Notes under the pieces: generated by a model
Told to the model about the DNA's origin: nothing
Database searches by the model: none
What the model saw: only the letters and a program-made list of their open reading frames with translations
In this document: in pieces, positions 15,038 to 64,000 of the stretch
Layout: each line of letters begins with the position of its first letter
Numbering within the stretch: the first letter of the stretch is position 1
Source: Selaginella tamariscina
Lineage: Eukaryota; Streptophyta; Lycopodiopsida; Selaginellales; Selaginellaceae
Reading direction: 5' to 3'
DNA: 64,000 bases
Assembly (NCBI GenBank): GCA_003024785.1
Contig: PUQB01000907.1
Coordinates: forward strand, 1 to 64,000
Position numbers and translations under genes: made by a program

Positions 15038-15110
15038 TGGAAACGCCGGGCATCGAACCCGATACCTCTCGCATGCTAAGCGAGCGTTCTACCATCTGAA
15101 CTACATCCCC
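15038..15110 (-). tRNA. tRNA-Ala (AGC), third copy
   Basis: 73 nt, with a perfectly paired CTCGC/GCGAG anticodon stem, AGC anticodon, G3-U70 and a consensus GGTTCGATGCC B box. Its stems are the best paired of the three copies. Confidence 0.9.
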
Positions 15111-39110: not shown

Positions 39111-40363
39111 ATGCCAGGCAGTCCCAATCTGTGCCGTTCATACGCTTACAGGGTTATCTTTGCTATTATGGATGTTGAAGACGATGCGGAAGTATTCACT
39201 GTTGTCTATTGTATTGTGGATAGTGCGGAGAGGCTAGATCCGACGGAAGATGCAGTAAAGCGGCACAACTCATCGGCAGCACTAACGCCAGATATTGAGA
39301 ACATGTATGGCGAAGTGATTGAGAGCATTAAGCATTGGCCTGGATTTGCGTGCGTATTTGAGCAGCGGGCCTGGCATGGCTTATTGGACAGTCAGCAACG
39401 CCTGCAATTGGCCAAGGGTGCCACCGTTTATCTCAAGCTTATCCGCCATCAAGGTATATGATCTGCCACCCCTTTTTCTGGTGTGGCTCGATCATATTTG
39501 TTTGTCGTTCCGCTTGTTGGCGGATCTGTGTGCGCTTTTTTTGATGGCAGTAGTGCTTGTGGTGCTCCATGGCCGTTGGGTTGTGTTTTCTTATTGTGTG
39601 CTCTGGATGTGTTATTGCGGGTGTTGTTCTGTTCGTTTTTACGTGGCTTTAGCCATGCCTACATGTAGCACTGATAAGCAAATGCAAAAGCTTCTCCTGC
39701 GTTTACTAAACCATGATATATTTTGTTAGATTGGTTGCCACTTACTCACGTTCTTCAGAAGCTCGACGCTCTGAAATTTCTGCTACATGAAGCACTCTGG
39801 TATTTAATGCTGAGGACTTCGAATTAGTACGTCAGGCGCTGAAAATCGTTGGGCCTATCAGCGAAGACAAAGATGGGAAAATGTTGACGTTGTAGAGCAA
39901 CTTTTGGGAGATGAGCAGTTGTGGATCAAAGGTACGAGGAGCAACAGCGAGTTAGATACTGTAAAATCGTGGAGGGCTGGATGGCAAGCAAGAGAGTTCA
40001 CAGATTCATCAGATGGGTGAACGGGAACCAGGAAACTATACGGCGCAGGTTTGAGGGCCTGCATTTCATAAGAACGATCTGGTTGCAGTGGTGAGAGGTT
40101 TCGGGCAGCTTTTTGGATGTGCTGGGTGTGAACTTTGACGAGGACTTTCTGATGGCAGCGTTGATGGACTTTTTTTCTCTGGGCTGATGCATCGTGCGTT
40201 CCGTTTGTTCAGCTCATCACGGATGGAGTAGCAATTTACTGCAAGCGGATAGATGCAGTAACTGGCATTGAACTGAGGCAGGTGGTGCTCAGAAACATGG
40301 ATGAAGTTGAGGAATTCGTCTCTAGTACGGGGATGCTCTTCCAGATAGGGTCTCGGCGAAAAT
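39111..40363 (+). pseudogene. unrecognised gene remnant left of the MULE-like element
   Basis: An exon-like frame from 39,111 (MPGSPNLCRSYAYRVIFAIM) ends at a splice-donor-like CATCAAGGTATATG near 39,453. Further coding-like DNA with normal composition continues to about 40,363, for example FEEFVSSTGMLFQIGSR-type text near 40,310-40,350, but no frame stays open. I do not recognise a family. The MULE-like element starts directly after it, and similar GC-richer DNA resumes at 48,370, so the element may have landed in this gene or older element. Confidence 0.35.
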
Positions 40364-40510
40364 GAGGCTCCGGCTCAAGAGGCTTCGTATATTCTAGTAT
40401 TCGTGGATATTCCAGGTATATTCTAGCATATTCTAAAATATTCTCAAGAATATTTTAGAATATATAAGTTTTTTTAATATGCCGACTGGCTTAATATTTG
40501 CCGACCAACA
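40364..40510. repeat. left terminal inverted repeat with HSE-like array
   Basis: The AGGCT-rich outer part is followed by multiple ATATTC/GAATAT blocks, many at 5-bp steps, then TGCCGACTG and TGCCGACC. The relative at 48,825 shares this end clearly, which defines the terminus. Confidence 0.7.
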
Positions 40511-40779
40511 AATAAATCATTTAAATTTTTAGAATTTTTTTTTGAATACTTTATAAAAAAGTTCAATAAGTTACTATTCAAACAAAGCATTTTTATGTAA
40601 ACCATTTATCCTTGTCGCACCAGTGGGTCATGAACTCTGCTGCAATTCACCAGCAAACGGTGGACCTCCATCTCACTAAGCAATTGCCTTTGTAGAAAAT
40701 ATGTGACGTCCGGGTTCAAGCCAAGCACACGGCTATAGACGAAGTACATGTGTATACATGGGCTCCAACTTTTGCTCTT

Positions 40780-43675
40780 CTAAAAGGTAGAACAATTACA
40801 TGTAGGATAAGTATTAATAGTCACCTTTGCAGAGTCATTTCTTGTCGACACAATGAAAGCCTCCTTCCGTCCTCTAATTGTCACTTCAACATTTCTCACA
40901 CGACCTAAAAACGTCTTGGCCTTGCAGAAATTCTTCTCTTGTTCCTTAGACATTTTTGTTGGAGTCCGGACCATGCGTCCTTCGAAAGGTGGAATTGTTG
41001 TAGATCCAGCTCCACGTGGTGGCGATGGTGTTTTGTCCTTCTGACCCTCATTTACTCTTCATGCCGTCCCTGTAAACCTTCCAGAACAAAGCCTACATCC
41101 TCCTCACTTGTCAGCTTCGTTTCCTTGAGCACAGGCCAAACCGTTGGTGGTGTTGGAATTCTTGTCTGAAGAATTTTGCCATTTGGCTGCGTGAAACACC
41201 CTGAATCTTTTGGGCAAAACCACATCATCTGTTGTACATACTCCTCATTCCCAAGGCATCACTGTACATTCGTTTTCCATAGAATCCTGGTGCTGGCACT
41301 CTGCTTGGATAACCGATTGATTTTCCACACAGAGCAGTTCCTTCCTGATTCATCCCCAAACACTTAACCTTACTGGATGCTCCGATTCGTCTGATGGCCC
41401 ACTCTGTTTGTGCAATCTCTCTTTCCAAACCTCTTCGAACCTTAACCTTTTCTCCTGTTGTTTTGGACCACCCGCTCTGTGTACTCTACATCATGTCTGT
41501 GTGAACGTTGAGCATTAGACTGTTCTGTTCCTGTGATTGTTCTCCTAACAGTTTGCACTCAAACGTTAGTGGTACTCGTGAACTCTGGGCTGGTCAAGTG
41601 TTCCTCGTCTTCCACCAGATTGATAATTGTTGATGGAGATACACTTTTCCCCTCAAAGAGTTTGCGTTGCACTCGTTTCAACAAAGTTTCCTTCGAAGGA
41701 CCTGACCCTGTATACCTCCCTTCTATTGCCGCTTTCACCTTTGCACTCTGCATAACTGCATCGGTGAGGTCTAACATTGTCGCCTCCAGCAGTGGTACTC
41801 TTTTGACCAATCTTGCTCTTCTTGCTCTCGTGTGAATCACTTCAGCATTGTTTTTAGTTGGAACGCTCGCGAGTCCTTCTTCTGTCATGTCTCCCAGTTC
41901 CGCCATGGAGATGTGGTTCTCATGCCTGATCCACCAAGACAGCCATGTCTTCAAAGCACGAATGTTTAACACTCATCCTTCCCAAAAAGACTCGAGAATT
42001 GCTAGTTCTTCTGCGATCCATTTCTTTGTCACCTGACACACGGATTGCATAAAGTGAAACAGACAGCTTCTTTCCCTCCCTTTCATCTTTTCTCCGTTGT
42101 TGAATACTTGGCGCAAGGCTATCCATATCGCTCCAGCCTCATCCGACATGAAACCAGCAAAGTTGACATTCTCCAAACCCTGTTTCTTACAAACCTCTAG
42201 CATTGTGTTCAAGAACTTCAGCACTGCAACATTATCTTCGGCACATATCTGCGTAAGCTATAGTCACCATGGATCTGACACTGTAAGAGAGCATTAGATA
42301 ACAAAGATTAGAAAGTGTTATGAAGAGTTCTACAACTTACAATGGGTCATAAAGGTGTATTCCAATTGTCGCCCAGTCTGGTATACGGTGCGTGTGGTCC
42401 AGAACAACCCATTGATCATGAAGGTCTCCTCCACTTTGACACCTTCTGATGTAGTCAACTCCTGAACCCGGTCCCTCAACTGTCATTTTGAAGATCAGAG
42501 GCTGCTCCTCAGCACCATGCAGTTCCATCCCTGGAACATGTATGACGTGAATGAAAGGTATTGGCAACTTTGTCTTCAGCTCCAGAAGACCCTCGTAACC
42601 CTCTCTAAAGTGTGTCTCCTTCTGTCTTGATTGTGTAATCCAGTCCCGAGTCCTAAAGGAAAGGTCACGTCATGTGTAGAGATCTAAAGAAAAATACCTT
42701 CGATGGTTTGTTAAGGTTCAAGTTTTGAGAGTAAACCAGTGTACGAGACTTCTCCTTCTTCCTTGAAAAGTTCTTCAAAGATGAGCTCACACGCAGCTTG
42801 AAACTCAATCACTCGTTGATTGGTTCGCAGACTGCTCTTTACCACGTTGCTGACACTAGATCTGGCACGCTGAACGTTTGAAGCTGACACTGAGGGGCTG
42901 ACTGGATGCTGATGAACACCTCTGTGAATGAACAACCTTGTAAAAGAAATGTCGTCTGGCAGAATGTAGTACACATAAGCCGGACAAGTGTGCACTAGCA
43001 ATGGCTCCTCTCCACAATGCTTACATTTCATGCCTATTACTTTGCCTGTCTCAGTTGTCTTTGCCTTCTCCACAGCACCCTTGAAGTGACATTCATTTGC
43101 TTTCTTCTCAAAAGCCAAGTAGGGGCAGGTAGGATTGATGCATTTGAGATGTCCGACACATGAACTTCGACTGACTCGCGCCGGAACATGCCAGTGTGTT
43201 GTGCTCGGGTGTGTCCAATGGTAGCAGCCATCCTTGCGATTCATCCCCAAGTACTTCTCTGTGCTTTCTTTCTTTGGAGGAAGTTCGTAAATGACATTTC
43301 CATTGTATATCTGCGGTAGTTCAGAGACTCGTTTAACTTCAGACGAACCAATGAGATCCTTCCCTATCCTACATTTGTCTGCTCTTAGAAGACACACCAG
43401 CATGGATTCCTCACGCTCCTTTGTCCGCAACCTGAACAACGGTCCCTTGCCGGGCACAATGTGTAAAAGACAAACTGGTTTGATGCATTGCCTTCTGGTA
43501 ACAACTCCACATCTTCTCCAGAACTCGCAGAAACTGACATCAATTGAACCACATGTATACTGAACCAACAAGGAATGTTGAAAGCAAAGTGAAGATCATG
43601 TTCAAACACAAAAGCATTTCCATCTTCATCGACTGGGAAATCTTTGTCAATGCCTTCATAGGTAACTCTGGCCAT
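40780..43675 (-). pseudogene. MULE transposase with GCM/WRKY-type zinc finger (broken)
   Basis: The transposase would cut and reinsert the element in the nucleus. From the N-terminus: an MARVTYEGIDKDFPVDEDG start at 43,675, then a Cys/His finger (CVGHLKCINPTCPYL, MKCKHCGEEPLLVHTCPAY, HRGVHQHP, about 42,890-43,170) of the GCM/WRKY superfamily known in MULEs. The DDE catalytic core follows: VVLDHTHRIPDW near 42,400, then GFMSDEAGAIWIALRQVF and CLFHFMQ (about 42,060-42,170), the typical D...C-x2-H block. The C-terminus has a SWIM-like VEVTIRGRKEAFIV ... CNC segment (about 40,790-40,900). Several frame changes and stops separate these parts; some could be introns or sequence errors. Confidence 0.78.
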
Positions 43676-43959
43676 GACAACGCAAGGAGAAAGCTCGGTG
43701 GTTTAGGAAAGCAAAGCAAAAGATTAAACACACTCTCGTTCGCCAAAAAAAATTATAATCGTTGATAATAAACGTGAATACACTTTTGTATATAATTAAT
43801 TCTACGCTGCCCAGCTCACAGTGTTCTTAATGCTGTCCTCTCTAGTATCACCGATTTAATTTAATTACTACCTTTTATGATTTGAAATATCTTCACCTTT
43901 ACCAATTATTCACATATTTTAATATTAACCCTAAATATTAATGTCACATTTATTCCGTA

Positions 43960-44040
43960 GGGTTCACTGTTTTCATTGCGGCTAGGGTTTTTTGGTAGAT
44001 AGGGTTTACTGTTTCCACTGCGGCTAGGGTTTTTTCAATC
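43960..44040. repeat. duplicated telo-box leader sequence
   Basis: GGCTAGGGTTTTTT occurs twice, each after a related AGGGTT(C/T)ACTGTTT(T/C)C segment. AAACCCTA-type telo boxes are common in plant promoters and leaders. It lies in the shared upstream region of the two divergent genes. Confidence 0.6.
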
Positions 44041-44138
44041 TCAGATCTGATTCTGAAATCTCCTCCAAGGGGCTTGAGAGGAGCGGCGCCATCCATTTCG
44101 AGTCGATTCGTGCACCAAGTAAATCAATCGAGATTTCT

Positions 44139-44925
44139 GTGCCGATTTAGATTGTCGGCACCATCCTGCTCAGTCGGCGGCCACAAGGTATGTGCAATTT
44201 CTTTATTTTATGATTTGCGGCTCAAATAATTTATTTTTCAGAGATAAAGGGTCTTCCCATTTGTGCCGTGAGAGAGACGGCACCATCCTGGTTCAGTCGG
44301 CAGCCACAAGGTATTTTCAATTTGTTTATTTTTTGCTTTGCGGCTCAAGTATCCGTATCACAATGTTTTTTTTTTCAGAGTTAATGGGTCTTCCCATTTG
44401 TGTCGGAATCCCAGAGATAAAGGGTCTTCCCATTTGTGCCGACTGAGAGTGACGGCACCATCCTGTTCAGTCGGCAGCCACAAGGTATTTTCAATTTGTT
44501 TATTTTTTGCTTTGCGGCTCAAGTATCCATATCACAATGTTTTTTTTTTCAGAGTTAATGGGTCTTCCCATTTGTGTCGGAATCCCAGAGATAAAGGGTC
44601 TTCCCATTTGTGCCGACTGAGAGTGACGGCACCATCCTGGTTCAGTCGGCAGCCACAAGGTATTTTCAATTTGTTTATTTTTTGCTTTGCGGCTCAAGTA
44701 TCCATTCACAATTTTTTTTTTCAGAGTTAATGGGTCTTCCCATTTGTGCCGTCTGAGAGGGACGGCACCATCCTAGCTCAGTCGGCATACTTACATTATC
44801 TCTTCAGTGCCGTCTGAGAGGGTCGGCACCAACCTGTCTCAGTCGGCAGGATTGCTCTTCTACTTTTCTGTGCCGACTGAGAGGGTCGGCACCATCTAGC
44901 TTGAGTCGGCAGCCACAAGGTTAGT
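44139..44925. repeat. seven hairpin repeats GTGCCG...CGGCAC between divergent transposon genes
   Basis: Units start at about 44,139, 44,258, 44,434, 44,610, 44,746, 44,808 and 44,870. Each reads GTGCCG(A/T)CTGAGAG, then CGGCACC, then CAGTCGGCAGCCACAAGG, so each can form a hairpin. Two neighbouring units lie in a 176-bp tandem repeat that also contains GGGTCTTCCCATTTGTG and splice-like borders (poly-T CAG|AG before, CACAAG|GTATTTTC after). The array precedes the ParB-methyltransferase start codon, with a final acceptor-like CAG at about 44,987. Confidence 0.85.
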
Positions 44926-44997
44926 CATCTTTGATTTTTATTTTTATTTTGTCTCCTAATCAATTGACTTGTGTGTTTGCTTTCCAGAGTTTACAAA

Positions 44998-47900
44998 ATG
45001 GTGAGAGCTTCAAAACGTCTACTAGAGACTACGCCTGATGAAGAGCCACGGGAAGAGAAGAGGATATCGAAGCACAAGCGAGGCAAGAGAGGAGAACCAT
45101 CTAATGTAGCAAAGGAGGATCCTCCAGTGACTCAGTCTGAAGTAGTACCAGTTGAGCAGGAGTAGCCTCCATCAACCATCACAAATTTCTCGGAGAGCTC
45201 GTCGCAGTTGCCTCCTTCATCCGCTGGTTACAGTCCTGAACGAAGGCAAGTGCAGATGACAGAGGCAGTTGAAGCTAGCGAGGACGACTTGGAGGAGGCA
45301 GTCAGCAAAAAGAGAGGCCGCGGGAAAGCTGATCCAAAAGGCAAGAAGGCGAAGAGCGATAAGGAGCCGAAGGAGTTATACAGCATACCGGCTAGCCTGC
45401 ATTTGGAGAGCTCAGCGAACCTGCTCGACAAAATTACTATCAAGGGACTTGGTGATCCTCCTGATGTGCCCATCTGTAGAATGCATTCGAACGAGGTGGT
45501 TCGGAGTGAACCCAGGGGACTTGGACATGCTGGTGTCATCGTTGAAGAAGGCTGGTTATCTACGCAACACGGCCTTGTTCATTCTGTCCATCGGAGATCC
45601 ACTCACTGCTGAGGAGCTATCGGAGCTGTCGAAGGACACGGTTCAGTACGAGCAGCACCGGTCTTTCGAGCAAGCTCTTACTCAGCCGGAGTACAAACAG
45701 TGGGCTTCGAGGCTCTCAAACCGGAAGTTCAGCTGCTGGGACGGGAACCATAGGCTACAGGCTTTGCAGAAGCTCTACCGGGAGGATGCAGAGGACAACC
45801 AGCGATGGGCTATTCGCATTCGATCGAGTTTCATCTCCACGGAGAACCTCGACAATCTTCAACTGGTTTCGATGTTCCAATCGATAAACATGTGAGTATT
45901 TTCTTTTCTTTTCGTTAAGGGTCTAGACTTACAGTTTCATTGAACAGATCTTCAGCAACATCTGTGGAAACAACGCTACCACATATTCTCCTCGCTGTAA
46001 AGGCGGTCTGCACTAGTACCGAAGGAACTCAGAAAATCCTCGAGTCACTCACGAGGTTGATCGTCTTGAGGTGCGGAAGTGGAAGGAGAGTTCAACAGGA
46101 AAGACGGCTTGGCATCCTCTTCCAAACCTGATCTGCGCAAAGATCCTTTTCAAGGTAACCTGATTTGATTTATAGGAAAGAAGTTTTTAACTTATTCTAT
46201 GTGCAGAACGAGATCGACGATGATCTCGACAGAGCAGTCACCAGTGCTAAAGGCAATCCACAGCTTGAGCTGAACCTGAAGCAGCTAGTGTACAAGAAGC
46301 ATGACAAGCGTATGCACAAGTTCCTCTCTATCATAGACCCAGAGTTGGGGGAGGAGTGGTTCCAGAAGGTGACGAACATCTCTCATAAGCAGTGTCGCTG
46401 GATGGGCATTGAGAAGCTGTATACGATGTCAAAGGCGAAGATTTCAAACATGCTGCGACTCCGATACTTGAACAAGCTCACTCGTCTCGAATCCAAGGCA
46501 GAACAACAGACACTTGGGCTACCAGGCATGCAGGACAAAGAGTGGATCAAGTGGTTCACCTTGGACTTATATTGGAAGGCTGTGCGCGAGGAAGCCATTC
46601 AGATCCTTAAGGGGTTGCGAGAGGATGGTGAAGAAGTTGGAACGGATGTCGACTTCATGAGCTGGTTTGACGAGATGCGAACTCGGAGCAAGTGCCTGGT
46701 CTTTCAGCCCTTCCATGACTGCATACGGTTCACTTATTCGATGGAGCCGAATGAGTTTCTGGAGCGTGAGGAGTCTGCTCGGATGATATGGAGGTAAGCT
46801 TTCATTCCAGCATTGCTACTGACTAACTTTGTGTTACAGGTTCATACTGGCGAAGAAAATGGCACCGTCTCAGACGATGAAGCTGTGGACAGATCATACA
46901 AGCGAGCCTCACATGTGGTCGAAGAGCAGAGGAGCTCTAACACCGTTCGAACGGGAGCATGTTCCATTCTGGCTCGACTGTCCGTCGCAACAGCCACCAG
47001 CTTGGGAGAGCTCACTATTCGACGTGCATGGCAATGATCTCCAGCGATTGTTTGGGAGCCGGACGAAGTAGAGGCTATCAAGAAGAGCAAGATGAAGAAG
47101 ACGGTGCGGAAGACAACTACACCTGCAAAGGGATCGGGAGCGGGACCAAGCTCTTCTACAGCACCTCCGCGGCAATCGACTTTACAATCAATGAGGTGCA
47201 GCCACTTGTAGCTGGTTTGGACATCAAGGACGACCTGATGACCTTCATCCCGACTGGCTGCATCCCGTGGATCCTACGACCTGGCTGTGTGCGATATGGA
47301 GGGATGAGCAGGTCTTTCTTCGAGCCGGGTGCTTCCCAGACAGAGGTGTACACCAAGCTCCGACAACAGGTTGACAACTACATGGCTGAGTCACAAACGG
47401 TGTTCCAGGAAGTGGTAGGTGAATACGGCTTCAACCTCATCATCCTCGACTTGCCCAATGAGCTTGTATATGGAGGTGCTAGCATCAACAAGGACATTGT
47501 GCAGCTAGATCCGGTGAAGTTTGAGGAGGCCTTGCAGTTCAGTGGAATGCACTTGGCAGCGAGTGGTTTCATGGTCGTCTTCGCGAGTTCTCCTTCTGTT
47601 TCGGCGGTGATTCAGGGCTGCGGTAATCAACTTGGAGGTTGCAGGGACTTACAGCGTCTACCGTGCACGAGGCTGGGGATACCGTGACAAAATTAAGGTA
47701 AGCTAGCTATTCAAGTTCAAGTTTAACTTGGTCTATGTGGCAGGATAACTTGTTGGTTCTCTTGGTGCTGCAAAGCTCTGAGAAGAAGTCGAAGAGGCCA
47801 AACCCTCTGGCGTTGACGAACACGATCCTCGTCGATACCGACCGTTTTCAGGAGGCTTGGTAAGGAAGTACTTTACTTTGTTTATCCTAATGGAAGTTTG

Positions 47901-48182
47901 TGCAGGATGATGATTCAACCGAAGAGTGTTCGACTCATGCAGCTTTTGATCGAGCGTCTCAGTAGACCTGGCGACCTAGTCTGGGATATTGGTTCCGGAA
48001 CCGGATCATCGTTGTTAGCTGCCGTCGAGCTCGGAAGGAATATTATAGGAACCGAGAAGAGTTTCGAACTCTCTAGGTTGGCAACAAACAAGCTCGCAGA
48101 GAACATTAGACCAGAGGAAATACCTACTCACACCTCCACGTCCAAGCCTAGCTGGTGGTTCGAGAACTGCAGCTTTACTTAA
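44998..48182 (+). pseudogene. ParB-domain DNA methyltransferase-like gene of the MULE-like element
   Basis: A multi-exon gene, nearly whole. It begins MVRASKRLLETTPDEEPREE with a basic tail. A ParB-like domain follows (PICRMHSNEVV, NPGDLDMLVSSLKKAGYL, then SCWDGNHRLQAL at 45,735-45,770). A helical middle region covers 46,200-46,800 (EWIKWFTLDLYWKAVREEAI). The methyltransferase part has a motif-IV-like LIILDLPNELVYG near 47,435 and then X-I text: KSVRLMQLLIERLSRPGD, VWDIGSGTGSSLLAAVELGR, IIGTEKS (47,930-48,070). Order IV before X-I matches beta-class N4-C/N6-A enzymes. Introns with GT-AG borders lie near 45,894-45,948, 46,156-46,204, 46,797-46,841, 47,698-47,743 and 47,862-47,907. Apparent breaks: a TAG at 45,163 and frame changes near 45,503, 46,045, 47,070-47,190 and 47,625. 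The usual DPPY is replaced by DLPN, so activity is uncertain. Confidence 0.78.
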
Positions 48183-48259
48183 GATGAAGAAGAAACTTTA
48201 GCTAATGTGTATTGAGTAATAAATTAAGCTAATATAAAAAAGAATAAGTAGAAATACAA

Positions 48260-48368
48260 CAGTTTTACTAGAATTTTTTTTGCCGACTGAGGCAATACTG
48301 CCGACCAGAAAGAATATTCTAAAATATTCTAGAATATTCGAGCCCAGGCCTCCTGGGCCCCAAGCCTC
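48260..48368. repeat. right terminal inverted repeat with HSE-like array
   Basis: TGCCGACTGAGGCAATACTG and CCGACC are followed by GAATATTCTAAAATATTC and TAGAATATTC, and then the GGCCTCCTGGGCCCCAAGCCT terminus. It is inverted relative to the left end in its outer part. Confidence 0.7.
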
Positions 48369-48369
48369 C

Positions 48370-48824
48370 AAATGGCGACACTCTTTCCAGATAATCTTGG
48401 GGATGATGGTCCGGACGGTCTGATCCCCCTCAGGCTTGTCTGGCCAAGAAGTTCAAGCAGATGGAAAAGACGAGCGTGATTATGGTGGAAAGGTCTGTTA
48501 GATGGGGGAAGAGCGGGCTACCAAAGCGCAGATCCTACATGTAGCATTGATTTTTTGGCAGTCCTGCCCCTGCTCTTGCTCCTGATCATGCTGGTAAGTT
48601 CATTTATGGCTACTATTGCCCTGGTTGCTTGTTTTTCCATGCCATGACGATGTATGGATCTATGTTTGCCCCATCTTATTGATGCACTATTGGTTGACTT
48701 TCTGGCGCATTCTGTGGCTGTTTTGTTCATCATAAGTGAGCATCACGGTCAAGTCAATTGAGTTCAACCCAGTCAACTTGGGGTTTTGAGGTCAATCTTG
48801 ACCATGAACCTCTTGTTCACGACA
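48370..48824. other. spacer between the two MULE-like copies
   Basis: GC-richer, coding-like DNA without a sustained frame, probably remnants of the same unknown sequence seen left of 40,364. GTCAA-rich text (AAGTCAATTGAGTTCAACCC) occurs at about 48,751. No gene is identified. Confidence 0.4.
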
Positions 48825-49094
48825 GGAGGCTTTGGAGTATTCTGGTATATTTGTGGATATTTTGGGTATATTCTAGCATATTCTAGAATATTGTTAGGAA
48901 TTTTTTTTTTTTTTTAATATGCTGACTGGCTTAATATTTGCGATCAACAAATAAATCATTTAAATTTTTAGAAATTTAAATATTATATAAAAAGTTCAAT
49001 AAGTTAGTATTCAAAGCAAGCATTTTTATGTATACCATTTAATCTTGTAGCATATGTGTGCCATGAACTCTACCGCAAATAGTGAACCTCCATC

Positions 49095-51430
49095 TCACTC
49101 AACATTTCTTACTTGACCTAAAAGCCTTGGCCTTGTGGATATTCTTCTGTTGTTCCTTAGACATTTTTGTTGGAGTTTGAACCATGCGTCCATCGAAAGG
49201 TAGATCCAACTCCATGTGGTGGTGATGGTGTTTTGTCCTTCTGACCTTTTTCTACTCTTCCTGTGGTCCCCTGTAAACCTTCCAAAACAAATCCTGCATC
49301 TTAATTCTTTGACCTTCTCAGTTGTTAGCTTTGTTTCCTTGAGCACATGCCAAACCATTGGTGGTGCTAGAATTCTTGACTAAAGAGTTTTGTTGTTTAG
49401 CCACTTGAAACACCTAGAATCTCTTGGGCAAAACCACATCATCTGCTGTACATACTCCTCATTCCCCAAGGCATCACTGTACATTCGTTTTCGTAGAATC
49501 CTAGTGCTGGCACTCTGCTTGGATAACTGATTGGTTTTCCACATAGAGCAGTTCCTTTTTTTTCATCCCCAAACACTTAACCTTATTGGACACTCCTATT
49601 CGTCTGATGGCCCACTCTGTTTGTGCAATCTCTCTCTCCAAAACCTCTTCGAATCTGAACCTCTTTCAGTTGTTTTGTACCACTCGCTTTGTATACTCCA
49701 TATCATGTCTATGTGAACGTCGAGCATCAGACTGTTCTGTTCTCATGACTGCTCTCTTGACAGTTTGCACATGAACATTAGTGGTACTTGTGAACTTCGG
49801 GCTGGTCAAGTGTTCCTCATCTTCCACTAGATTGATAATTGTTGATGGAGATACACTTTTCCCCTCAAAGATTTTGCGTTGTACTCGTTCAACAGAGTTT
49901 TCTTCGAAGGACCTGACCCTGTATACCTCCTTCTATTGCCACTTTCACCTTTGCACTTTGCAGAATTGCATCAATGAGGTCTAACATTGTTGCCTCCAAC
50001 AATGGTACTCTTTTGGCCAATTTTGCTCTTCTTGCTCTCGTGTGAATCGCTTTCGCATTGTTTGTAGTTGGAATGCTCTCAAGTACTTCACCTTTCATGT
50101 CTCCCAGTTCTAACATGGAGATGTGGTCCTCATGCTTGATCCACCAAGACACCCATGTCTTCAAAGCACGAATCTTTGACGCTCATCCTTCCTGAAAAGA
50201 CTCAAGAATTGCTAGTTGTTCTTTTTGGATTGTTCATCCAATGCTACAGGCCAGGCACAAGCAAGCTTCATGTGTTCTTCACAGTGTTCTTCTACGATCC
50301 ATTTCTTTATCACCTGACGCACAGATTGCATAAAGTGAAACAGCATTTCTTTTCTTTCCTTTCATCTTTGCTCCATTGTTAAATACTTGACGCAAGGCTA
50401 TCCATATTGCTCCAACCTCATCCGACATAAAACCAAAAAAGTTTACATTCTTCAACCCTATTTCTTACAAACCTCTAGCATTGTGTTTAAGAACTTTAGC
50501 AATGCAACATTATCTTCGGGACACATATCTACATAAGCTATAGTAACCATAGATCTGACATTGTAAGAAAGCATTAGATAACAAAGAATAAAAAGTGTTA
50601 TGAAGTGTTCTACAATTTACAATGGATCATAAAGGTGTATTCCAATTGTTGCCCAGTCTGGTATATGATGTGTGTGGTCCAGATCAACCCATTGATCATG
50701 AAGGTCTCCTCCACTTTGACACCTTCTAATGTAGTCGAGTCCTAAACCCAGTCCTCAATTGTCATTTTGAAGATTAAAGGCTACTCCTCATCACCATGCG
50801 CTGGAACATGTATGATGTGAATGAAAGGTGTTGGCAACTTGTTTTTAGCTCCAAAAGATCCTTGTAACCCTCTCTAAAGTGTGTCTCCTTTTGTCTTGAT
50901 TGTGTAATCCAATCTTGAAAAGATCAAGTCAGTGTGCAGAGATCCAAAGAAAAATACCTTTGATGATTTGTAAGAGGTTCAAGTTTTGAGAGTAAACCAG
51001 TGTACGAAACTTCTCCTCCTTCCTTGAAAAGTTCTTTAAAGATCAATTCATGTGCAACTTAAAACTCAATCATTTGTTGATTGGTTTGTGGACTACTCTT
51101 TACCGTGTGGCTGACACTAGCTCTGGCATACAAGACGTTTGAAGCCAACACTGAGGGGCTGACTAGATGCTGATGAACACTTCTGTGAATGAACAACCTT
51201 GTATAAGAAATCAAAATGTAGTACACATAAGCTAGACAAGTGTGCACTAGCAATGGCTCCTTTCCACAATGCTTACATTTCATGCATTGCATTTTGCCTA
51301 GCTCAAATGTCTTCACCTTCTCCACAACACCCTTGAAGTGGCATTCATTTGCTTTCTTCTCAAAAGCCAAGTAGGGGCAGGTAGCATTGATGCATTTGAG
51401 ATGTCCGACACAGGAACTTCAATTGACTTG
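49095..51430 (-). pseudogene. MULE transposase remnant in the second copy
   Basis: It parallels 40,900-43,190 of the first copy. Recognisable parts include the finger segment (FEKKANECHFKGVVEK, MKCKHCGKEPLLVHTCLAY, about 51,220-51,370) and the stretch near 49,890-50,160 (MKTWVSWWIKHEDHISMLEL). The DDE region survives only in pieces with several stops and deletions. Clearly non-functional. Confidence 0.8.
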
Positions 51431-51467
51431 CATTGGAACATGCCAATATGTTATGCTTGGGTGTCCA

Positions 51468-52025
51468 AGAGTTGAACACTCTTCGATTGAACCATCATCA
51501 TGTACGAACTTCTATTAGAATAGACAAAGCAAAGTACTTCCTTACCAAGCTTCTGAAAATGATCGGCAGTATCGACAAGGATCATGTTCGTCAATGCCAG
51601 AGGGTTTGGCTTCATCGACTTCTTCTCAGAGCTTTGCAACACCAAGACAACTAACAAGTTATCATGCCATATAGATCAAGTTAAACTCGAAATGAAAAGT
51701 AAGCGTACCTTAATTTTGTCATGGTATCCCCAGCCTCGTGCACAATAGACCCTGCAACCTCCATGTTGATTACTATAGCTGCCTGAATTACTATCAAAAC
51801 CGAAGGAGAAGTCGTGAAGACGACCATGAAACCACTCTATGCCAAGTGCATTCCACTAAACTGCAAGGCCTCCTCAAACTTCACTGGATCTAGCTGCACA
51901 ACATCCTTGTTGATGCTAGCACCTCCATATACAAGCTCATTTGGCAAGTAAAAAATGACGAGGTGAAGCTGTATTCACTTACCACTTCCTGGAAAAACGT
52001 TTGTGACTCAGCCGTGTGTAGTTTA
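51468..52025 (-). pseudogene. inverted fragment of the ParB-methyltransferase gene
   Basis: The minus strand matches 47,380-47,943 of the first copy: LPNELVYGGASINKD, DPVKFEEALQFSGMHLA, and the NPLALTN(T/M)ILVDTAD segment. In the first copy this gene is on the plus strand. The intron borders seen in the first copy are partly kept. LPNELVYG in place of a DPPY motif is shared with the first copy, so it is a family feature rather than a chance mutation. Confidence 0.8.
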
Positions 52026-52240
52026 TCAACATGTATGCACGTTGTAATTAAAGTGGGCATGATACGTGAAAATGGGAATATAAAATAAATTACTATTAAT
52101 ACTAAGTTTTATTATTAATTAATCATTTAATTAATATGTAATTAAGACTTAAATATTAATTTAATTAATTAATCCTTCAATAACCTTACTTAGTAAGGAA
52201 TATTCCTAAACTATCTTAGAATATTCATATATTTTAAAAA

Positions 52241-53422: not shown

Positions 53423-53732
53423 TATTATCCATTTCCTGCATGAACTCTGTCATTCTGACATGTGGCACAAGAAATTGTCGCCAAACCCCTCTCTTACCTC
53501 ATGCCAATGCTGAAAATCCATGTTCTCAATTTTTCATTACATCTGCAAAATGATAATTAGCTGACCTTAAAATTATCAAGGTATATTATTTACCTTGTTA
53601 ATGTGTGACCCATGTTTGAACTAAAAGCTTCATTAATCCTTGAGAATTTATTTTCTGTACAAATATAAAAGAAATATACAAAAATGCCTTATGTTACACT
53701 CATTTACAACTATTCGTCACTCTAACAATTCA

Positions 53733-56635
53733 TTACAATTCTTCGCTATTACCTTCTGAGTGAGGCGAAGAAGGTCTAAGCCGCTTGTGAGATGGTTCAA
53801 GATCTTCTGCATCTTCTATTGATGTTTCCATGGGTAATGGAGTGTGCGAATGTTCTGTACTCCTCGAGATAACTTCCGGTCTAATATCTGATTGAAGTTC
53901 GTTCTCAGACTCCGACATTGAACCAGATTCCTTCAGAGCTATCGCACTTATCTGGAGGGAACTTTCTCAAATACTCCTTTATGGATTCGTTGGGGTACTC
54001 AGTTGAGAACCTATCTATCCACTTGTTCAGGTCCTCAACCATGGTCTTATCCTTTTCAACGGCAAACACACATGTATGCCGAAGGTAACACTCCTTCAAG
54101 ACGGACCCCCTAGTGCAGTAGTCAAAAACCCACGCATCACTGTGAGGACCCCTGATCAAGTTGACGATGCTCCGTGCCGCTTGACTTGTGATGTTTGGAT
54201 AACGTACATTGCCGAATACGTCACTCTACCTATCGGTGTATCGGATGGAGGTTCAGGGCCGTTGGAGTGCAAACAGATGCCTGGCCAGTCATTTGGAAGT
54301 TTGAAATTGTTTGGCGCATTCCTAACAACCAAGTGAACAACGAATCAATGCACTTCGGATCAGCATCATTCATATAAAATCCTGTCCAACGATGTTTATT
54401 CTCTTGGCAAAGGAGAAGGCAAAGTATCGGTGACATGAGCAAGAATCAAGAAATAAATACCTGAAAAGTAGATATCAGAAGAGTGCAAATGAATTCAATA
54501 ATAAATACCTTCTTGTATGCTTGCACGGCTAAGTTTCTCCACCAATCCTCTAGTGTCCTGTCTGTCGAAGGATTTTTTGACACCCGCCGATCCATCACGA
54601 ACAATTGAAACGGTTTCCTACAAGCAGTGATGTACCCCATAAAGTCTCCGAATCAACAACAAACATCTGTAGGGCTTGTCGTGATTCGTAGCATCCTCCT
54701 TTATAAGGTTCAACTCGGTTCTCCGCTGCTGAAGGACTGCCATAAGAGAAGGCGTCATCCAATGTTCTCCTTTTTGGCGTTGGCGTGCAATAGATTCTTG
54801 CCCAGATCTTCCGATTGATTCACCCATTCGACAAGCATATCATCATTTGTCACATGCAAATATTTGCTGACCTCTTCGTATGTTGAAGCCGATCCAACCC
54901 AGTTTGTGGCAGTGTATTCCCAACCACTCCTTGAAGTGCCTGACCGTCTTCAACTCCATTGCCTTGAGATGAAAAGGAGAGGTGGGCTGCTGTTGTTAAT
55001 TGTAATTTGCCATCAATCACCAAATCAGCCAAGACTTCCATCTCCTCCATCGTTGTTCCATTTAAAGGCTTCAACCATGTGAGCTTGAAATCGTTGTCTA
55101 CATCCTTTATAGATTGAACAGACTTAGCCTTCGGCGTCTTACTGGGTTTCTTTGCAGACTTCTCTGAGGGCTCCACTTCACTTGTCTGCTTCTTCTTCAG
55201 TGTTCCTTTTGCAAAGGATTCCATAATCCCCAACCATTTGGCAAAGATCCTATCCTCGGGACAAGAAATCAACATCATCAAAAGGATGTTTCCTTCCCGC
55301 CCACCTGGGCAAAATCAACTGCTACAATTTCTTCAACTCTCTGAGGAAAAAGACAGATTAATATACCGGCGAGATAAATCCCGCCCAAACAATTTGCTTA
55401 CCCGGTATTCCGCAGATTGTGTATTCCCTGCGGTAGCTCTTTGTGGTCGCTGAAGAGATTCCCACACGGCTCGCGTGTGTTTGAACTTCTCCCATATTTT
55501 GCTGTTGTAGTGGTTGGTGTGCAGCGTCCCATTCCGCCGATAACTTATGGTACTGCTCGATTGTGAGATTCGGCTTCGCTAAAAACGCCGATCTTTTTCG
55601 TCAGCTTCTCACGGGTATGCTCGGAAAGTTTTGTTGCCATCGTTCCTTTGTTGTGTTCGTCGAGAAGTCGTTGGGCTGCCGTTATTGTGTGCTGGCCACT
55701 AATGATGTAGTACTTGATGATTTTCTATTCTCCGTCTGAATTCTCATTTGTTCGGTGTTGTGATCCACACTTTGTCAGCGCCTTTTCTCTCGTAGTATGC
55801 GCACAAAACAGCATTATGTGGAACGGTGTAAGAATTGTCGTCCTTCATCTTCTCCATGAGCTCAGCTACACGTTCCTGGTTGAGTGGCCTGTAATTGAAG
55901 TTTGGGTTGACGCTGCAATACTTAACCCTACACTAGGTAAATCTATCATCCAACATCATTTCCTTGTGGCTTATTGCAGCATGGATGCCACAGGTGCAGC
56001 TGACAAAACGACTAATGATTTTCTTTTGCGATCCGAATCAACATGTGTGATCCCCGATTGATGCTGTTCTATGTTCTCGGCACACTCTTCCAGCTCCCGA
56101 AATTTCTAAGCAAATTGAACGTGATCTGTAAAGAACCTGAGACCAAGCCACCCTCTCAATCTCCTTATGATGTCGCTGTGTTCTTCTTCAATGTGAAGAG
56201 GGACGATTGCTCCACTTGTGATTTTCTGTATTGTGAAGCAATATCTCCTGACAATACACCTACTCGATGAGTCTGAAGATCTTCGAAGTAGACATCCAGA
56301 TGGATCCCCTCCATAGATGGGCTTTCGTTGAGTTGAAGAAGAACTCCAAGGTCAACATCATTAGTGAACACGTGAACGTCATTATCCACAAGTCGACAAA
56401 ACCACCCGAAATTAATGTTGTAACTGGCGACCTCTGGATCCGAGAACGTGACATTGGATGGAACAAGGCATATGTGTCGAGCATCGTTCAATCTGGGTTC
56501 ACAGCATGCTTTCGGTGCTTGACTAGCACACCCACTTTCCATTGTTTTGCTTGTCCATGCGATGTGACAGAGGTTAGTTTGACAGCAACCATGGTTGTTC
56601 CAATGCGCTTCCCGTTTAGTTTGAAATATGGCCAA
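53733..56635 (-). pseudogene. second, divergent ParB-domain methyltransferase-like gene
   Basis: Minus strand. The N-terminal stretch (56,165-56,635: NINFGWFCRLVDNDVHVF) is unrecognised. A ParB-like domain follows: VNPNFNYRPLNQERVAELME (about 55,850-55,915), then, one frame over, KYYIISGQHTITAAQRLLDE (about 55,650-55,720). The middle holds a basic linker (SEKSAKKPSKTPKAKSVQS) and KLTWLKPLNGTTMEEMEVLA. The methyltransferase part shows a possible motif IV (FVVDSETLWG, about 54,650-54,680) and a motif X-I region (SDAWVFDYCTRGSVLKECYL, CVFAVEKDKTMVEDL, about 54,015-54,145). An acidic Ser/Pro tail ends at 53,733. Domain order equals that of the gene at 44,998, but identity is low. Several stops and frame changes; some may be introns. 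Confidence 0.6.
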
Positions 56636-56639
56636 GTTG

Positions 56640-57120
56640 ATTCCAGAATCCCCCTGCCCATCTCTTCTCCTGCTCTGTCTTTAATGTCACCTCAATTCCA
56701 CATCTGAATACAAAAATGATTAGTTCAAGTATCCGAGTATAACAGATTTTATTTTAATTCTTACCCAGAATTTGACGACGACTCCATACTAATGACTCGA
56801 TCTCCTTGTTTGATAAATCGTCCTTCTGCAAAATAATACACTATGAATACAAATCATATAAAAACGCACACACACTTGTATAAACCCGAATATACAAAAA
56901 TAATACACAGAGAGAAGTAGACGGAATTAACTGTCCAAAGCTCACCTTTGTGCTAGTTCAAAAGAAAGATAACATTTCGTTTTAGAACCACCACAAATGT
57001 GAGCTCTGGACAGTTTTACATAGTTTCCTAGCTTTTACTCGAAATATTATGATAAGATGATAAAAGTAAATAAAATGAGATATGCAACTTATATATACTA
57101 ATACACATATATATTCACAT
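56640..57120. other. spacer upstream of the second ParB-methyltransferase gene
   Basis: No gene was identified. It may hold 5' exons or the promoter of the minus-strand gene. Confidence 0.35.
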
Positions 57121-57127
57121 GGAAGGT

Positions 57128-58232
57128 GCGGCGGGATTAATCTCGCCACCCCTTCAATGCCTCCTGAAAGAGTGGGCGGGATTAATCTCGCCACCTTTCT
57201 GGAGGCCTTGAACGGGAGTGCGGAATTAATCTTGCCACCCTTCTCGGTCTCAGAGAGAACTGGGCAGGATTTATTTGGCACACCCCTTCAGTGACTCCAG
57301 AAAGGAGGCGGGATTAATCTCGCCCACCATGTAAGGGATGGTTAAATGAATTTCCCCACCCTTCCCTTCTCTCCATTGGTATGTTGTAAACCTTCTACGT
57401 CTCAGACAGAAACGTTTGGGATTGGTCCGACTCACCAATGGAAAAAAAGGAAGGGTGGCGGGATTCATTCCTCCAACAGGCATTGAAGGCTCGGCGGGAT
57501 TAATCCCGCCGCCCAGGGCCTTCACTCGGTCCCTATGCGGCGGGATTAATCCCGCCGGACGCCAATTCCCTGCGAATCGGGGGGATTAATCCCGCCGCCT
57601 AGGCCCTTAGGCAGGCCTTTGGGCGGGATTAATCCCCCCGATTCCGGCAGGGCAGCGGGATTAATCCCGCCGCCCAGGCCCTTCACTGGGCCTAGGCGGC
57701 GGGATTAATCCCGGACGCCAATGCCCTGCGCGGAATCGGGCGGATTAATCCGCCGCCTAGGCCCTTCAGGCAGGCCAATGGCGGCGGGATAAATCCCGCC
57801 CGATTCCGCGCAGGGCATGCGTACGCGGCGGATTAATCCGCCGCAGGCCCTTCACTCGGCCTTAGTCGGCGGGATTAATCCCGCCGACGCCAATGCCCTG
57901 TGCGAAATCCGGCGGGATTAATCCCCGCCTAGGCCCTTCAGCAGGCCAATGGCGGCGGATAAATCCCGCCCGATTGCGCGCAGGGCATGCGTACGCGGGA
58001 TTAATCCCGCCGCCTAGGCCCTTCAGGCAGGCCAATGGCGACGGGATAAATCCGCCCAATTCCGCGCAGGGCATGCGTAACGGAGGGATTAATCCTGCCG
58101 CCCAGGCCCTTCACTCGGGCTGAAATGGCGGCAGGATTAATCCCGCCGCCGAGTGGCTAATTATATAGCGGCAGGATTAATCCCGCCGCTACACACGTCT
58201 CACCATAAGCGGCATGATTAATCCCGCCGCTA
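57128..58232. repeat. array of about 25 GGATTAATCC palindromes, about 43-bp spacing
   Basis: The consensus GGCGGGATTAATCCCGCC is a perfect 18-bp palindrome. From about 57,490 to 58,210 successive centres fall about 40-46 bp apart. Spacers are related to each other (GCCTAGGCCCTTCAGGCAGG, CAATGCCCTGCGCG, AATTCCGCGCAGGGCATGCG). Units at the left end (57,133-57,470) are degenerate, with TCTCGCCA in place of TCCCGCC. No protein is encoded. Confidence 0.93.
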
Positions 58233-58239
58233 CACACAC

Positions 58240-58619
58240 ACACACACAGATATATATATGTATATGTGTGTGTAGGAGAGTGCGTGTGTGTGCCATAGAT
58301 AGTCAAATCAGATAAAATTATACAGATACACACACACACTATATGTATATGTATATACGCGTGTGTGTGCGAGAGATAAATAAATAAATAAAATTATACA
58401 ATACTGGTACACATAATATATGTATGTATACATAGGTATATAATATATATACGTGTATATGTATATCGTGTGTGTGTGAAACAAATAAAATCATACAGAT
58501 AAACAAAACACACACACACACATATATATACAGGGTGTGTGTGTGCGAGAGATACAATTAACAAATCAATAAAATTATACAGATACACACACACACACAC
58601 ATATATAGATAAATAAATA

Positions 58620-58673
<54 letters not shown>

Positions 58674-58934
58674 GTGTGTGTGTATATGTATACGAGTGTG
58701 CATGTGTGCGAGAGATAGAGATTTATAGAGAAGAGAGAAGAGAAGGAGATATATATATATATATATATCTGTGTGTGTATATGTATACGAGTGTGCGTGT
58801 GTGTGGAGAGATAGAGATCTATAGAGAAGAGAGAGAGAGAAGGATATATATATATATATATATCTGTGTCTGTATATGTATACGAGTGTGCGTGTGTGTG
58901 CAAGAGATAGAGAACTATAGAGAAGAGAGAAGAG

Positions 58935-58972
<38 letters not shown>

Positions 58973-59150
58973 GTGTGTATATATGTATACGAGTGTGCGT
59001 GTGTGTGCGAGAGATAAAGATCTAAATTATATTATTAAGATACACACACATATAAATATATGTGAATAAAATAAATAAATAAACTCAGAGGAGTGTGCGT
59101 GTGAGAGAGAGAGAGATCTCACCTGTGTGTGAGAGAGAAGGAGATTTCCA
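58240..59150. repeat. microsatellite-rich tract with about 100-bp tandem units
   Basis: Mixed (CA)n, (TA)n and (GA)n. From about 58,672 a compound unit TCTGTGTGTGTATATGTATA, then CGAGTGTGCGTGTGTG and GAGAGATAGAGATCTATAGA, recurs four times (about 58,672, 58,768, 58,862, 58,970). Open frames here are repeat artefacts. Confidence 0.9.
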
Positions 59151-61340
59151 TGCCGCCGCCGCCGCCTTACAAACCCTAGGAATATACTTAAACCTTAAAA
59201 GGAATAGAATATATTAACCCTAATCGAATATTCCTTCTAAGAATATACTTAAACCCTAAAAAGAATAAACTATAGATTCGCCCTAAACGAATATTCTTTC
59301 ATTATATTATCAGCGTGTGTGTGTGCATGGGTGTATCACATACACCCCAAGAATAAATATCATGCAAGGGTTTAACACATGTGTGTCCATGAGAGTGTTA
59401 AAGTTTCACATGCAGCGATACATATATACACACATAATATTATACACATAGACATACATACATATTAGTATATATTAATATTAGAGAGACAGAGTACAGG
59501 ATCATGTATGGTGTGTATGTATGAGAGAAGAGTGACAATACATATTATGGATCATGCATGGTGTGTATGTTTGAGAGAAGAGAGACAGTACATATTTACA
59601 TGGATCATGCATGGTGTGTATGTATGAGAGAAGAGTGAGAGTGTTAACAAATTAAATTCATACACATTGGATATATAGTACACACATATACATACACACG
59701 TGTATACACACAGACATACATACATATTACATGTGTAAATTCAATGTAGGGTTTAGGGTTTAGGGTTAGGATGGATCATGCATGGTGTTTATGTATGAGA
59801 GGAGTGAGTGTTATACACAGATATACATTATACATATTATATAATATTGTAACATCAGTATATTATGAATCATGCATGGTGTGTATGTATGAGAGAAAAG
59901 ACAAGCTACATTTATGGATCATGATCATGCATGGTGTGTATGTATGAGAGAAGGGATTATGCATGGTGACACTATGTATGTATGAAGAAGAGATAGAGTG
60001 TTAACAAATGAAAATCGTACACATTGCATATATTATATTAGTACACATATATACATACACACGTGTATACACACAAACATACATATATATTACATGTGTA
60101 AATTCAATGTGTTACATACACACACACTGAGTACATATAAATCATACATGCATTGAACATGATGTTTTTCAATAAAGAAGCAACATATAATTTCTCAAGT
60201 TTGGTTTAGGGCAATGTGCATGTGTGTGCATATGTGTCTCTGTAAGTGCTTCTAATGCGTGTGCACATGTATATATAAATTTATGATTGTGTTTATATAT
60301 AATATGTGCAAAACAAACATCGAATAATTAAGAAAATAATATTAATATACACACTATGAACATATTTTAAATTATACATAATAATATATGATTTTATCTA
60401 ATATATAGCCATATATAGTTTTAATAATATATATTAATTTAATATTGATAATAAGGTTTAACACTAGAATATTCTTGAAATAATAACAAATTAATTGAGA
60501 AAATCCCATTAATATATACAAATGTAGAATAATTACTGAGATAATTAAGAATAAGACTAATTTAATTATGATAATCATGTTTAATATTGGAATATTCTTT
60601 GAATATTAAGAAAATAACAAAGAATATCCATTAATAGTAGGAAATGTAAATTAATTACTCGAGTAATTAAGAAAATAATAATAATAAACAGACTATGAAT
60701 ATATTTTAAATGATACATAATAATATATCAATTTATTTATTGTATTAGTGTATATATATATATAATATAAACTAATAATATAACTTGAATATTAAGAATG
60801 TAGAATAATTACAAAATTTCGTAATATTAAACAGCTTGAAGCACTTGAATGACATTAAATGCAATTTTAAAACACTCATTGGAATTGGAGAGTATATATG
60901 TCAGACTGTCGGTTATTGTTTCAACTCATCTTAAATTTTCTTTTTTGTTATTTCAAAAATTTTGAATTTCTGACATAAGTATTATCAGTCTGACATGTAA
61001 ATTTGAAAATACATTTAATTTCCCACTCAAATTCAAATCTGGTTCTTTCTCCGGCAAGGGTTTCTTCATTTTCACTCTTCAGATTTTCTTTTTTCTTCTT
61101 AGTGATCAGTTCAAGAGCGACATTAAATTGGGTGCGCTATTGTTTATAGGAAAGCACGCGCCCTTCAGTGCTGTTTACAAGTAAGTATTATAAATAAATT
61201 TAGATATATTTATAAAGATTCACTCTCTTACATTCTCTCTTAAATTTTAGAATTTAGGGATTTAGGAATGCATTAAGATTACAATATATTTTGTTAGGGA
61301 TTTATCCCGTTTAAATATACTTTTAACTTAGTATTCTCGG
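59151..61340. other. AT-rich DNA with CATGCATG tandem units
   Basis: GGATCATGCATGGTGTGTAT followed by GTATGAGAGAAGAG recurs about seven times between 59,498 and 59,960, sometimes with a GTGTTAACAAAT segment. ACCCTAA-type telomere-like text occurs at about 59,170-59,290 and 59,748-59,772. From 60,300 to 61,000 it is plain AT-rich. 61,030-61,180 resembles a leader with a splice donor (TTTACAAGTAAGT). Confidence 0.6.
59748..59772 (+). repeat. short interstitial telomere-like repeat
   Basis: About three plant-type TTTAGGG units (AGGGTTTAGGGTTTAGGG). Too short for a true telomere. Confidence 0.8.
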
Positions 61341-61344
61341 TTAG

Positions 61345-62062
61345 CCGGGGCGGCGGGATTAATCCGGCCATTTTTTTTTCGCCTCTTTGAAAGAGTGGCG
61401 GGATTAATCCTGCTACCATCTCTTTCATAGTTATGGCAGAATTAGTTCGGGCAATGCTTCTCCGCCTCTTAAAAAGAGCGGCGAGATTAATCCCACCGAT
61501 AACTCTCTCAACTGATAATGATTTACTTGAATTTATTAGAAAGAGTTGTCGGCGGGATTAATCTCGCCAACCATTTTAGGAGGCAGAGAAGGGGTGGCGG
61601 GATTAATCTCGCCATTACTTCCCTGTTTTAAATATTTGTGGGCAGAATTCATCCCGAATCTTTTTGAAATTATAGTTTCAGAGAAAGTTGTGGGCGGGAT
61701 TAATCCTGCCGCTTATTCCCCGTCGTCAGAATTGTGGGCGGGATTAATCCCGCCGCCTATTCTCCGTCGTCAGTGTTGTGGGCAGGATTAATCCCGCCCC
61801 TCTTCCTCGTCGGAGGAATTTGCGGCGGGATTAATCCCGCCGACTCTCACAGACGAGGAAGATTCGGCAGCGGGATTAATCCCGCCGCTTCTCTCCGACG
61901 AGGAAGTATCGGCGGGATTAATCCCGCCGCCTCTCTCCGACGGGGTAGAGTCGGCGGCGGGATTAATCCCACCGACTCTCTGCGATGGGTAGAGTCGACG
62001 GCGAGATTAATCCCCCGACTCATTCTGAAGGGGTAGAGTCTGCGGCAGGATTAATCCCGCCC
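61345..62062. repeat. second array of about 16 GGATTAATCC palindromes
   Basis: The same GGCGGGATTAATCCCGCC core as at 57.1-58.2 kb and similar about 43-46-bp spacing, but with different spacers (CTCTCCGACGAGGAAG, GGGGTAGAGTC). Again the left units are degenerate (TCTCGCCA, GAATTAGTTC) and the right units canonical. It ends about 150 bp before the transposon-type gene at 62,216. Confidence 0.93.
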
Positions 62063-62215
62063 ATCAGTTATATTAATAAAGCATAAGATATTATTTTTAT
62101 ATATAATTATGTATTATTGCACATGCATATTATTAAGCACCACAATTTAGATTTCTTAGAAAATATTGCATAAACAGATATCATAAATAACACAATTATT
62201 TATGTGTAGGACAAT

Positions 62216-63892: not shown

Positions 63893-64000
63893 TCTCAAAG
63901 TGAAGAAACAACACCTTCAACCTTTACATAATGCTCTCATGAACACGTCTGCACTTGAGGCTACTTGGGAATATGAGAGGCATTGTCAGCAACCTGCACA

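Follow-up and report, generated by a model that had tools for sequence, protein, structure and literature searches.

Transposon genes that pair a ParB-like region with a DNA methyltransferase region form a class that is already known, since algal cases have been reported. As described in passages of PMC12477816, the transposon Sola1-1_Ec32 of the brown alga Ectocarpus has a gene with ParB-like and N4C/N6A methyltransferase regions on the strand opposite to its transposase gene, and cases in green and red algal transposons are cited there, with self-binding and self-modification as suggested functions. In Arabidopsis, the VANC protein of VANDAL Mutator-like elements (MULEs) is described in passages of PMC5735166 as binding a short motif repeated in non-coding DNA and inducing loss of DNA methylation. 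Here we describe a MULE of the vascular plant Selaginella tamariscina in which a ParB-methyltransferase-like gene on the plus strand (the plus gene) lies divergent to the transposase gene. It was found in a stretch of 64,000 nucleotides (contig PUQB01000907.1 of assembly GCA_003024785.1, positions 1 to 64,000), hereafter the window. The element is a high-copy MULE, and its second gene is, with near certainty, an integral accessory gene.

A high-copy element with an integral second gene

The complete MULE spans window positions 40348-48384 (Table 1). The original prediction, which placed it at 40364..48368, had recognized a real element and set its limits too short by 16 bp at both ends; the divergent genes that it described between matching inverted ends are present in the window, as are the ends themselves. 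The terminal inverted repeats are about 100 bp long and imperfect, as seen when the left end of the young copy L031 is aligned to its reversed right end, and the right end of the element, reversed, begins AGAGTGTCGCC. Homology of other copies begins at 40345-40349 in 18 of 20 loci. Target-site duplications are perfect in 9 of the 14 distinct copies having both ends (window, L016=L017=L018, L019, L021, L023, L028, L029 with 8-9 bp, L030, and L031), those of L029, L030, and L031 being taken from flank reading. The duplication agrees at 8 of 9 bases in L015 and was not found in L022, L024, L025, and L026. Both long terminal inverted repeats and target-site duplications in the MULE range of 8-11 bp are therefore present.

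The genome searched comprises 300,702,823 bp in 1391 contigs, and the window, contig C1290, is itself among the matches. For the left end, all 40 scored places matched (of 533 first-look candidates); for the right end, all 40 (of 508); and for exon 2 of the plus gene, all 150 (of 1690). The ends, both genes, and the gene order thus recur at many genomic places, beyond chance. A listed exon-2 match lies at the expected distance from at least 11 of the 40 left ends and at least 12 of the 40 right ends; these are lower bounds because only 150 of the 1690 exon-2 candidates are listed.

We read 20 left-end loci (L009-L028) of the 533 candidates, plus three loci picked by gene (L029-L031). By their flanks, the 20 loci represent 16 distinct insertions, and sequence of both genes is found in 15 of the 20 loci (12 distinct). 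With the window included, 13 of 17 distinct left-end loci retain some sequence of each gene, although no right end was found in the stretch read for three of these 13 (L010, L011=L012, and L014). The remaining four consist of three left-end fragments and one masked locus. Only about 370-380 bp of left end are present in L027 and in L009 and L013, which share one site; L020 stops at element position 42401, and no right end of the same element was found in the stretches read for these fragments. L024 is masked between 41686 and 47890, and both of its ends and the last exon are present. A copy with both ends and without the plus gene, which would have spoken against the original prediction, was seen in none of the 20 left-end loci read of 533 candidates (L024 being masked inside), nor in the three gene-chosen loci. 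The claim that the methyltransferase-like gene belongs to the element is borne out by the retention at left-end loci, by the 150 or more places with exon 2, and by near-identical full-length copies. The recurrence of both genes at left-end loci and of exon 2 across the genome leads us to reject a host gene or a chance neighbor.

As a separate observation, L013 (5762) may be an empty site for the inverted element copy in L009 (5880). The flanks are 96% identical; the comparison covers one flank only, because the contig ends, and both stretches are in reversed orientation.

A second, decayed copy with the same two genes, also part of the original prediction, was confirmed in the window, where a left end with part of the transposase gene is joined to an inverted piece of the methyltransferase-like gene. 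No right end of this copy was matched within the window. Tandem duplication is disfavored as its source, because homology sets in at the end of the element rather than in the flank.

The transposase gene of the window copy is disrupted by stops and frameshifts. By motif reading, its product has DDE-like, C..H, and C-terminal SWIM-like CxCx(n)CxH motifs (with WVVLDHTH and FMSDEAGA..CLFHF), and its N-terminal part is Cys-rich and zinc-finger-like. No Pfam MULE profile matched the transposase in repeated profile searches, so the MULE assignment rests on the ends, the target-site duplications, and the motifs. The transposase of young copy L030 has a sub-threshold match to the SWIM zinc finger (E 0.0087, 16.0 bits, cut-off 19.6). 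Two ENA proteins are distant relatives (30-31% identical), and the relative P0001 matches Transposase_mut at E 0.18 only. The window and L031 transposase genes differ by 28 synonymous, 50 non-synonymous, and 4 nonsense changes, from which we claim no selection because these counts have no separate neutral model.

Structure and domains of the plus gene

In young copies the plus gene has five exons separated by four short introns of 56, 46, 46, and 46 nt. A candidate intron at about 46156-46206 was rejected in favor of coding sequence, as this stretch is open in all three young copies. The window copy is a pseudogene with several frameshifts; exon 1, which is open in L031, is interrupted in the window by TAG at 45163-45165 and by a frameshift near 45500. 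In the predicted product of about 1010 amino acids, a ParB-like region is followed by a middle region and then by a class-beta N6/N4 methyltransferase-like domain.

The C-terminal domain matches the Pfam profile N6_N4_Mtase both in the window open reading frame (ORF) 47898-48182 (E 7.7e-10) and in the last exon of L030 (E 8.9e-10, 39.3 bits, cut-off 26.7). Exons 3-5, in a read-through of the window, match the DNA methyltransferase family phrog_67 (E 5.2e-11), and the last exon taken with exons 3 and 4 matches MboIIA in PDB (E 5.8e-4). All of these matches are confined to motif I and its surroundings. The S-adenosylmethionine (SAM)-binding motif I, DIGSGTG, is intact in L029-L031, so that two features of class-beta N6/N4 DNA methyltransferases, a profile match and motif I, are found. 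The third, motif IV of the form (D/N/S)PP(Y/F/W), was not found, and the protein is therefore not classed as an active methyltransferase. The motif IV position reads DLPN, where DPPY is expected, in 19 of 19 readable sequences (24 were scanned, the stretch was found in 19, and several represent the same insertion); in the decayed second copy of the window it is YLPN. The placement of this position relies on the surrounding sequence and on a CcrM alignment that is very weak (score -3.0), and a MAFFT alignment did not settle it. No [DNST].P[YFW] tetrapeptide occurs anywhere in the 1010-amino-acid protein. Since DLPN stands where DPPY is expected, methylation is doubtful; the apparently degenerate motif IV argues against it without excluding it.

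The ParB label of the plus gene is putative and derives from motif reading only (VVRRVN...DLDRLVSSLKKAGYL...DGNHRLQAL). A comparison of the ParB region with phage DNA returned three records at E 2 or more, none of them relevant, and two queries found no relatives in viral contigs. At the motif IV position, two phage relatives read DPPY (EmiRose gp39) and DIPY (an ORF of MT836278). The broken window protein as query gave no match in a protein search; with the young-copy exons as query, the sole protein relative found was SELMODRAFT_402005 of Selaginella moellendorffii (E 8.5e-46), whose gene model retains the VVRRVN part and motif I.

Recent copies and selection

The three loci picked for an intact exon 2 (L029-L031) are all full length. 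L030 and L031 occupy different sites, L030 being inserted inside another copy of the element family, and share 99.65% identity over 8.34 kb. All three copies have exons 2, 4, and 5 open; L031 in addition has an open exon 1, and L029 and L030 an open exon 3. The lesions that remain look like small indels and may reflect decay or assembly error. Of the 150 exon-2 rows, 45 have one identical score and no stop, indicating a recent burst.

Twelve copies (the window and 11 others) differ from the young exons of the plus gene by 1207 changes, comprising 536 synonymous, 626 non-synonymous, and 45 nonsense. The synonymous share is 0.444, compared with 0.305 expected under a neutral model with the same mutation spectrum. 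When copies were tested singly, leaving out L015 and L025 for having too few changes, 9 of 10 exceeded the synonymous expectation at P < 0.005 (L019, P 0.18), although these tests are not independent because the copies share ancestry. The window copy has 41 of 87 changes synonymous (P 8e-4). At the level of sequence comparison, the plus gene is thus shown to bear a signature of selection in its excess of synonymous change. Of the 1207 changes, 646 are C>T or G>A, as expected if the host methylates the copies.

Iteron arrays inside the ends and in the leader

Short repeated motifs (iterons) lie directly inside both ends and in an array in the leader of the plus gene (Table 1). With at most one mismatch, the window element has 12 occurrences of TGCCGACTGAG and L031 has 15, whereas shuffled sequences (100 shuffles) average 0.15 and 0.14, respectively. 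The related search with GCCGACTGAG at the same stringency placed 13 of 15 window matches inside the element, a specificity seen in the window only. Across 13 copies, TGCCGACTG with one mismatch allowed is found 5 to 19 times in the central array, at least once at the left end in 13 of 13 copies, and at least once at the right end in 10 of 13. An element-specific motif in non-coding tandem repeats, as in VANC-type systems, is therefore present, its specificity being known from the window alone. By sequence reading, the leader units resemble tandemly duplicated mini-exons (CAG|AG...CACAAG|GTA) with a predicted splice acceptor and donor. The counterpart of the leader array in L031 is at element position 3870-4820.

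Possible functions of the accessory protein

We tentatively propose, with somewhat less than even confidence, that the plus gene encodes a sequence-specific self-recognition factor that is probably anti-silencing. The protein would recognize the TGCCGACTGAG clusters of its element, both those inside the ends and those in the plus-gene leader, would load on them, perhaps spreading like ParB clamps, and could keep copies open for expression and transposition, as VANC does for VANDAL MULEs. We infer the VANC-like role of the ParB-methyltransferase protein from the resemblance of these motif clusters to VANC targets. The original prediction that the transposon encodes its own DNA-marking or DNA-recognition protein holds better for recognition than for marking, because motif IV reads DLPN or YLPN and not DPPY. 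A more specific scenario, which we regard as doubtful, is that VANC-like self-recognition evolved independently in transposons of a vascular plant, out of a ParB-methyltransferase protein with a lost catalytic motif, which would bind SAM, load on TGCCGACTGAG iterons at the ends and in its own leader, and block silencing without methylating, and that a second, unrelated and even more abundant element of the window (see below) follows the same plan.

Several points weigh against self-recognition by this protein. Its ParB region matched no ParB profile in Pfam, PHROGs, NCBIfam, or PDB sequences, and a single-sequence structure model of the region (predicted local distance difference test score 34) is unusable. 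The DGNHR stretch and motif IV are both missing from the S. moellendorffii gene model. With one mismatch allowed, the motif is absent from the right end in three of the 13 copies, and it may be bound by the transposase instead or act in the leader RNA.

Active self-marking, in which adenine-N6 or cytosine-N4 methylation in or near the iterons would serve as a label for the transposase or against silencing, is unlikely. The significant N6_N4_Mtase match and the motif I left intact in young copies are consistent with it, as is the self-modification suggested for the algal relatives in passages of PMC12477816. The phage sequences DPPY and DIPY likewise show that the second position of motif IV may vary; yet they keep the aromatic residue, which DLPN lacks in every readable sequence, and no alternative tetrapeptide is available elsewhere in the protein. 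No more probable is a transposition cofactor that would bind the end-adjacent iterons, pair or protect the ends for the transposase, and regulate its own gene through the leader array. The presence of the motif both just inside the ends and in the leader would suit such a role, and other MULEs have second ORFs, one of them apparently required for integration in maize according to passages of PMC6446971. Most motif copies, however, are in the fast-varying central array and not at the ends.

Subterminal binding sites are typical for transposases, and the zinc-finger-like N-terminal part of this transposase would be compatible with the iterons being its own binding sites, leaving another role for the ParB-methyltransferase protein; with the largest motif cluster in the leader of the other gene, we consider this improbable. 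It is highly improbable that the gene is a passenger, captured and carried without function in the manner of Pack-MULEs. Many copies are indeed broken, including that of the window, but the synonymous excess, the open exons of young copies, the retention of the gene at 13 of 17 distinct loci and in every copy read that is neither truncated nor masked, the parallel algal cases, and the relative in another Selaginella all argue for a maintained gene. Recent gene capture is likewise not supported: the S. moellendorffii relative and the similar accessory genes published for algal transposons make an old accessory-gene class the likelier origin.

Other features of the window

Table 1 Features of the MULE and of its decayed second copy, in window coordinates
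Feature	Position	Strand	Basis or remark
Left target-site duplication TTCCAGATA	40339..40347	.	Identical to 48385-48393
Left terminal inverted repeat, imperfect, ATATTC-rich, begins GGGTCTCGGC	40348..40470	+	Copy homology start; L031 alignment
Left iteron pair TGCCGACTGGC...TGCCGACC	40480..40507	+	Three tandem units in L031
MULE-like transposase gene, pseudogene here	40600..43675 (lower boundary approximate)	-	Three exons by sequence reading
Divergent promoter region with TAGGGTTT boxes (putative)	43676..44136	.	Sequence
Repeated leader units carrying TGCCGACTGAG / CTCAGTCGGCA inverted pairs	44137..44911	+	Sequence
Exon 1, ParB-methyltransferase-like gene	44998..45891	+	Charged N-terminus, ParB-like motifs VVRRVN..DLD.L..SLKK.G, DGNHRLQAL
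Exon 2, without known domain, partly conserved in S. moellendorffii	45948..46793	+	
Exon 3, first half of methyltransferase domain, DLPN at motif IV position	46840..47697	+	
Exon 4	47744..47859	+	
Exon 5, SAM-binding motif I DIGSGTG, N6_N4_Mtase	47906..48182	+	Pfam
Right iteron pair TGCCGACTGAG...TGCCGACC	48281..48307	+	Sequence
Right terminal inverted repeat	48308..48384	-	Recurrence in copies, L031 alignment
Right target-site duplication TTCCAGATA	48385..48393	.	9 bp, perfect match to left one
Second copy, left end and transposase part	48823..51464	-	78-86% identity in three pieces
Second copy, inverted methyltransferase-gene fragment	51466..52034	-	47366-47939 reversed, 85% identity

A second transposon family occupies window positions 53500-64000 (copy L036), and another copy of it lies on the same contig at 70833-72986. 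A decayed minus-strand gene at 53.5-56.7 kb has a ParB-like motif, YYIISGQHTITAAQRLL, and a piece that is methyltransferase-like by eye only. Divergent to it, at 62-64 kb, is a transposase-like ORF that matches DUF7869 (E 7.3e-6, 26.1 bits, cut-off 26). With two mismatches allowed, 30 of 31 window matches to GGCGGGATTAATCCCGCC lie at 57.1-58.2 and 61.3-62.1 kb, between the divergent genes, and all 150 scored places (of 3728 candidates) matched an exon piece at 53953-54216 with 99-100% identity. No significant ParB or methyltransferase profile was found for this element (the best was the ParB-like phrog_1033, E 0.1), and its pieces gave no significant match when compared directly with the first element (E 0.77 and 0.087).

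Elsewhere in the window, a Gypsy-type retrotransposon lies on the minus strand at 1029-5027, with integrase, reverse transcriptase, and protease-like ORFs recognized by eye. Three tRNA-Ala(AGC) genes or copies, also on the minus strand, are found at 7543-15111 in an AT-rich stretch of about 27% GC.

Comparison with known systems

A search of the open-licence literature found no report of a ParB-methyltransferase MULE, nor any land-plant case. Within the literature searched, the novelty lies in the MULE host, in the occurrence in a vascular plant, in the iteron system, and in the absence of the catalytic motif. ParB-methyltransferase transposon genes are a proposed class of accessory proteins that has not been tested in the published passages of PMC12477816. 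In the element described here, copies are near-identical and have probably been active recently, a candidate motif for recognition is available, and the catalytic site is degenerate, so that DNA marking, a shield against silencing, and end pairing become directly testable with an element of a vascular plant. If the anti-silencing role is true, sequence-specific element proteins of this kind arose more than once.

Like the Sola1-1_Ec32 protein (1104 amino acids), as described in passages of PMC12477816, the predicted product has about 1000 amino acids with ParB-like and N6/N4 methyltransferase-like regions and is encoded opposite to the transposase of a DNA transposon. Compared by description, it differs in belonging to a Mutator-like element of a vascular plant rather than to Sola1, in its DLPN motif, and in the TGCCGACTGAG arrays. 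The same domain pairing is found in the phage ParB-methyltransferase fusions described in passages of PMC12704722, and the C-terminal methyltransferase region matches phrog_67. Unlike these fusions, the gene described here is a spliced plant gene on a transposon, with a degenerate motif IV and a ParB part too diverged for profiles. The retrotransposons of dinoflagellates and charophytes that carry DNA methyltransferase (DNMT) genes (PMC5890265) also combine a transposable element with a DNA methyltransferase-type gene, but theirs is a C5-cytosine DNMT on a retrotransposon, whereas here an N6/N4-type domain is carried by a MULE. The system shares with VANDAL and VANC, again compared by description and as presented in passages of PMC5735166, a MULE accessory gene and an element-specific short motif in non-coding tandem repeats that vary among copies. 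It differs from VANC in its ParB- and methyltransferase-like architecture, and anti-silencing, which has been shown for VANC, is here suggested by analogy.

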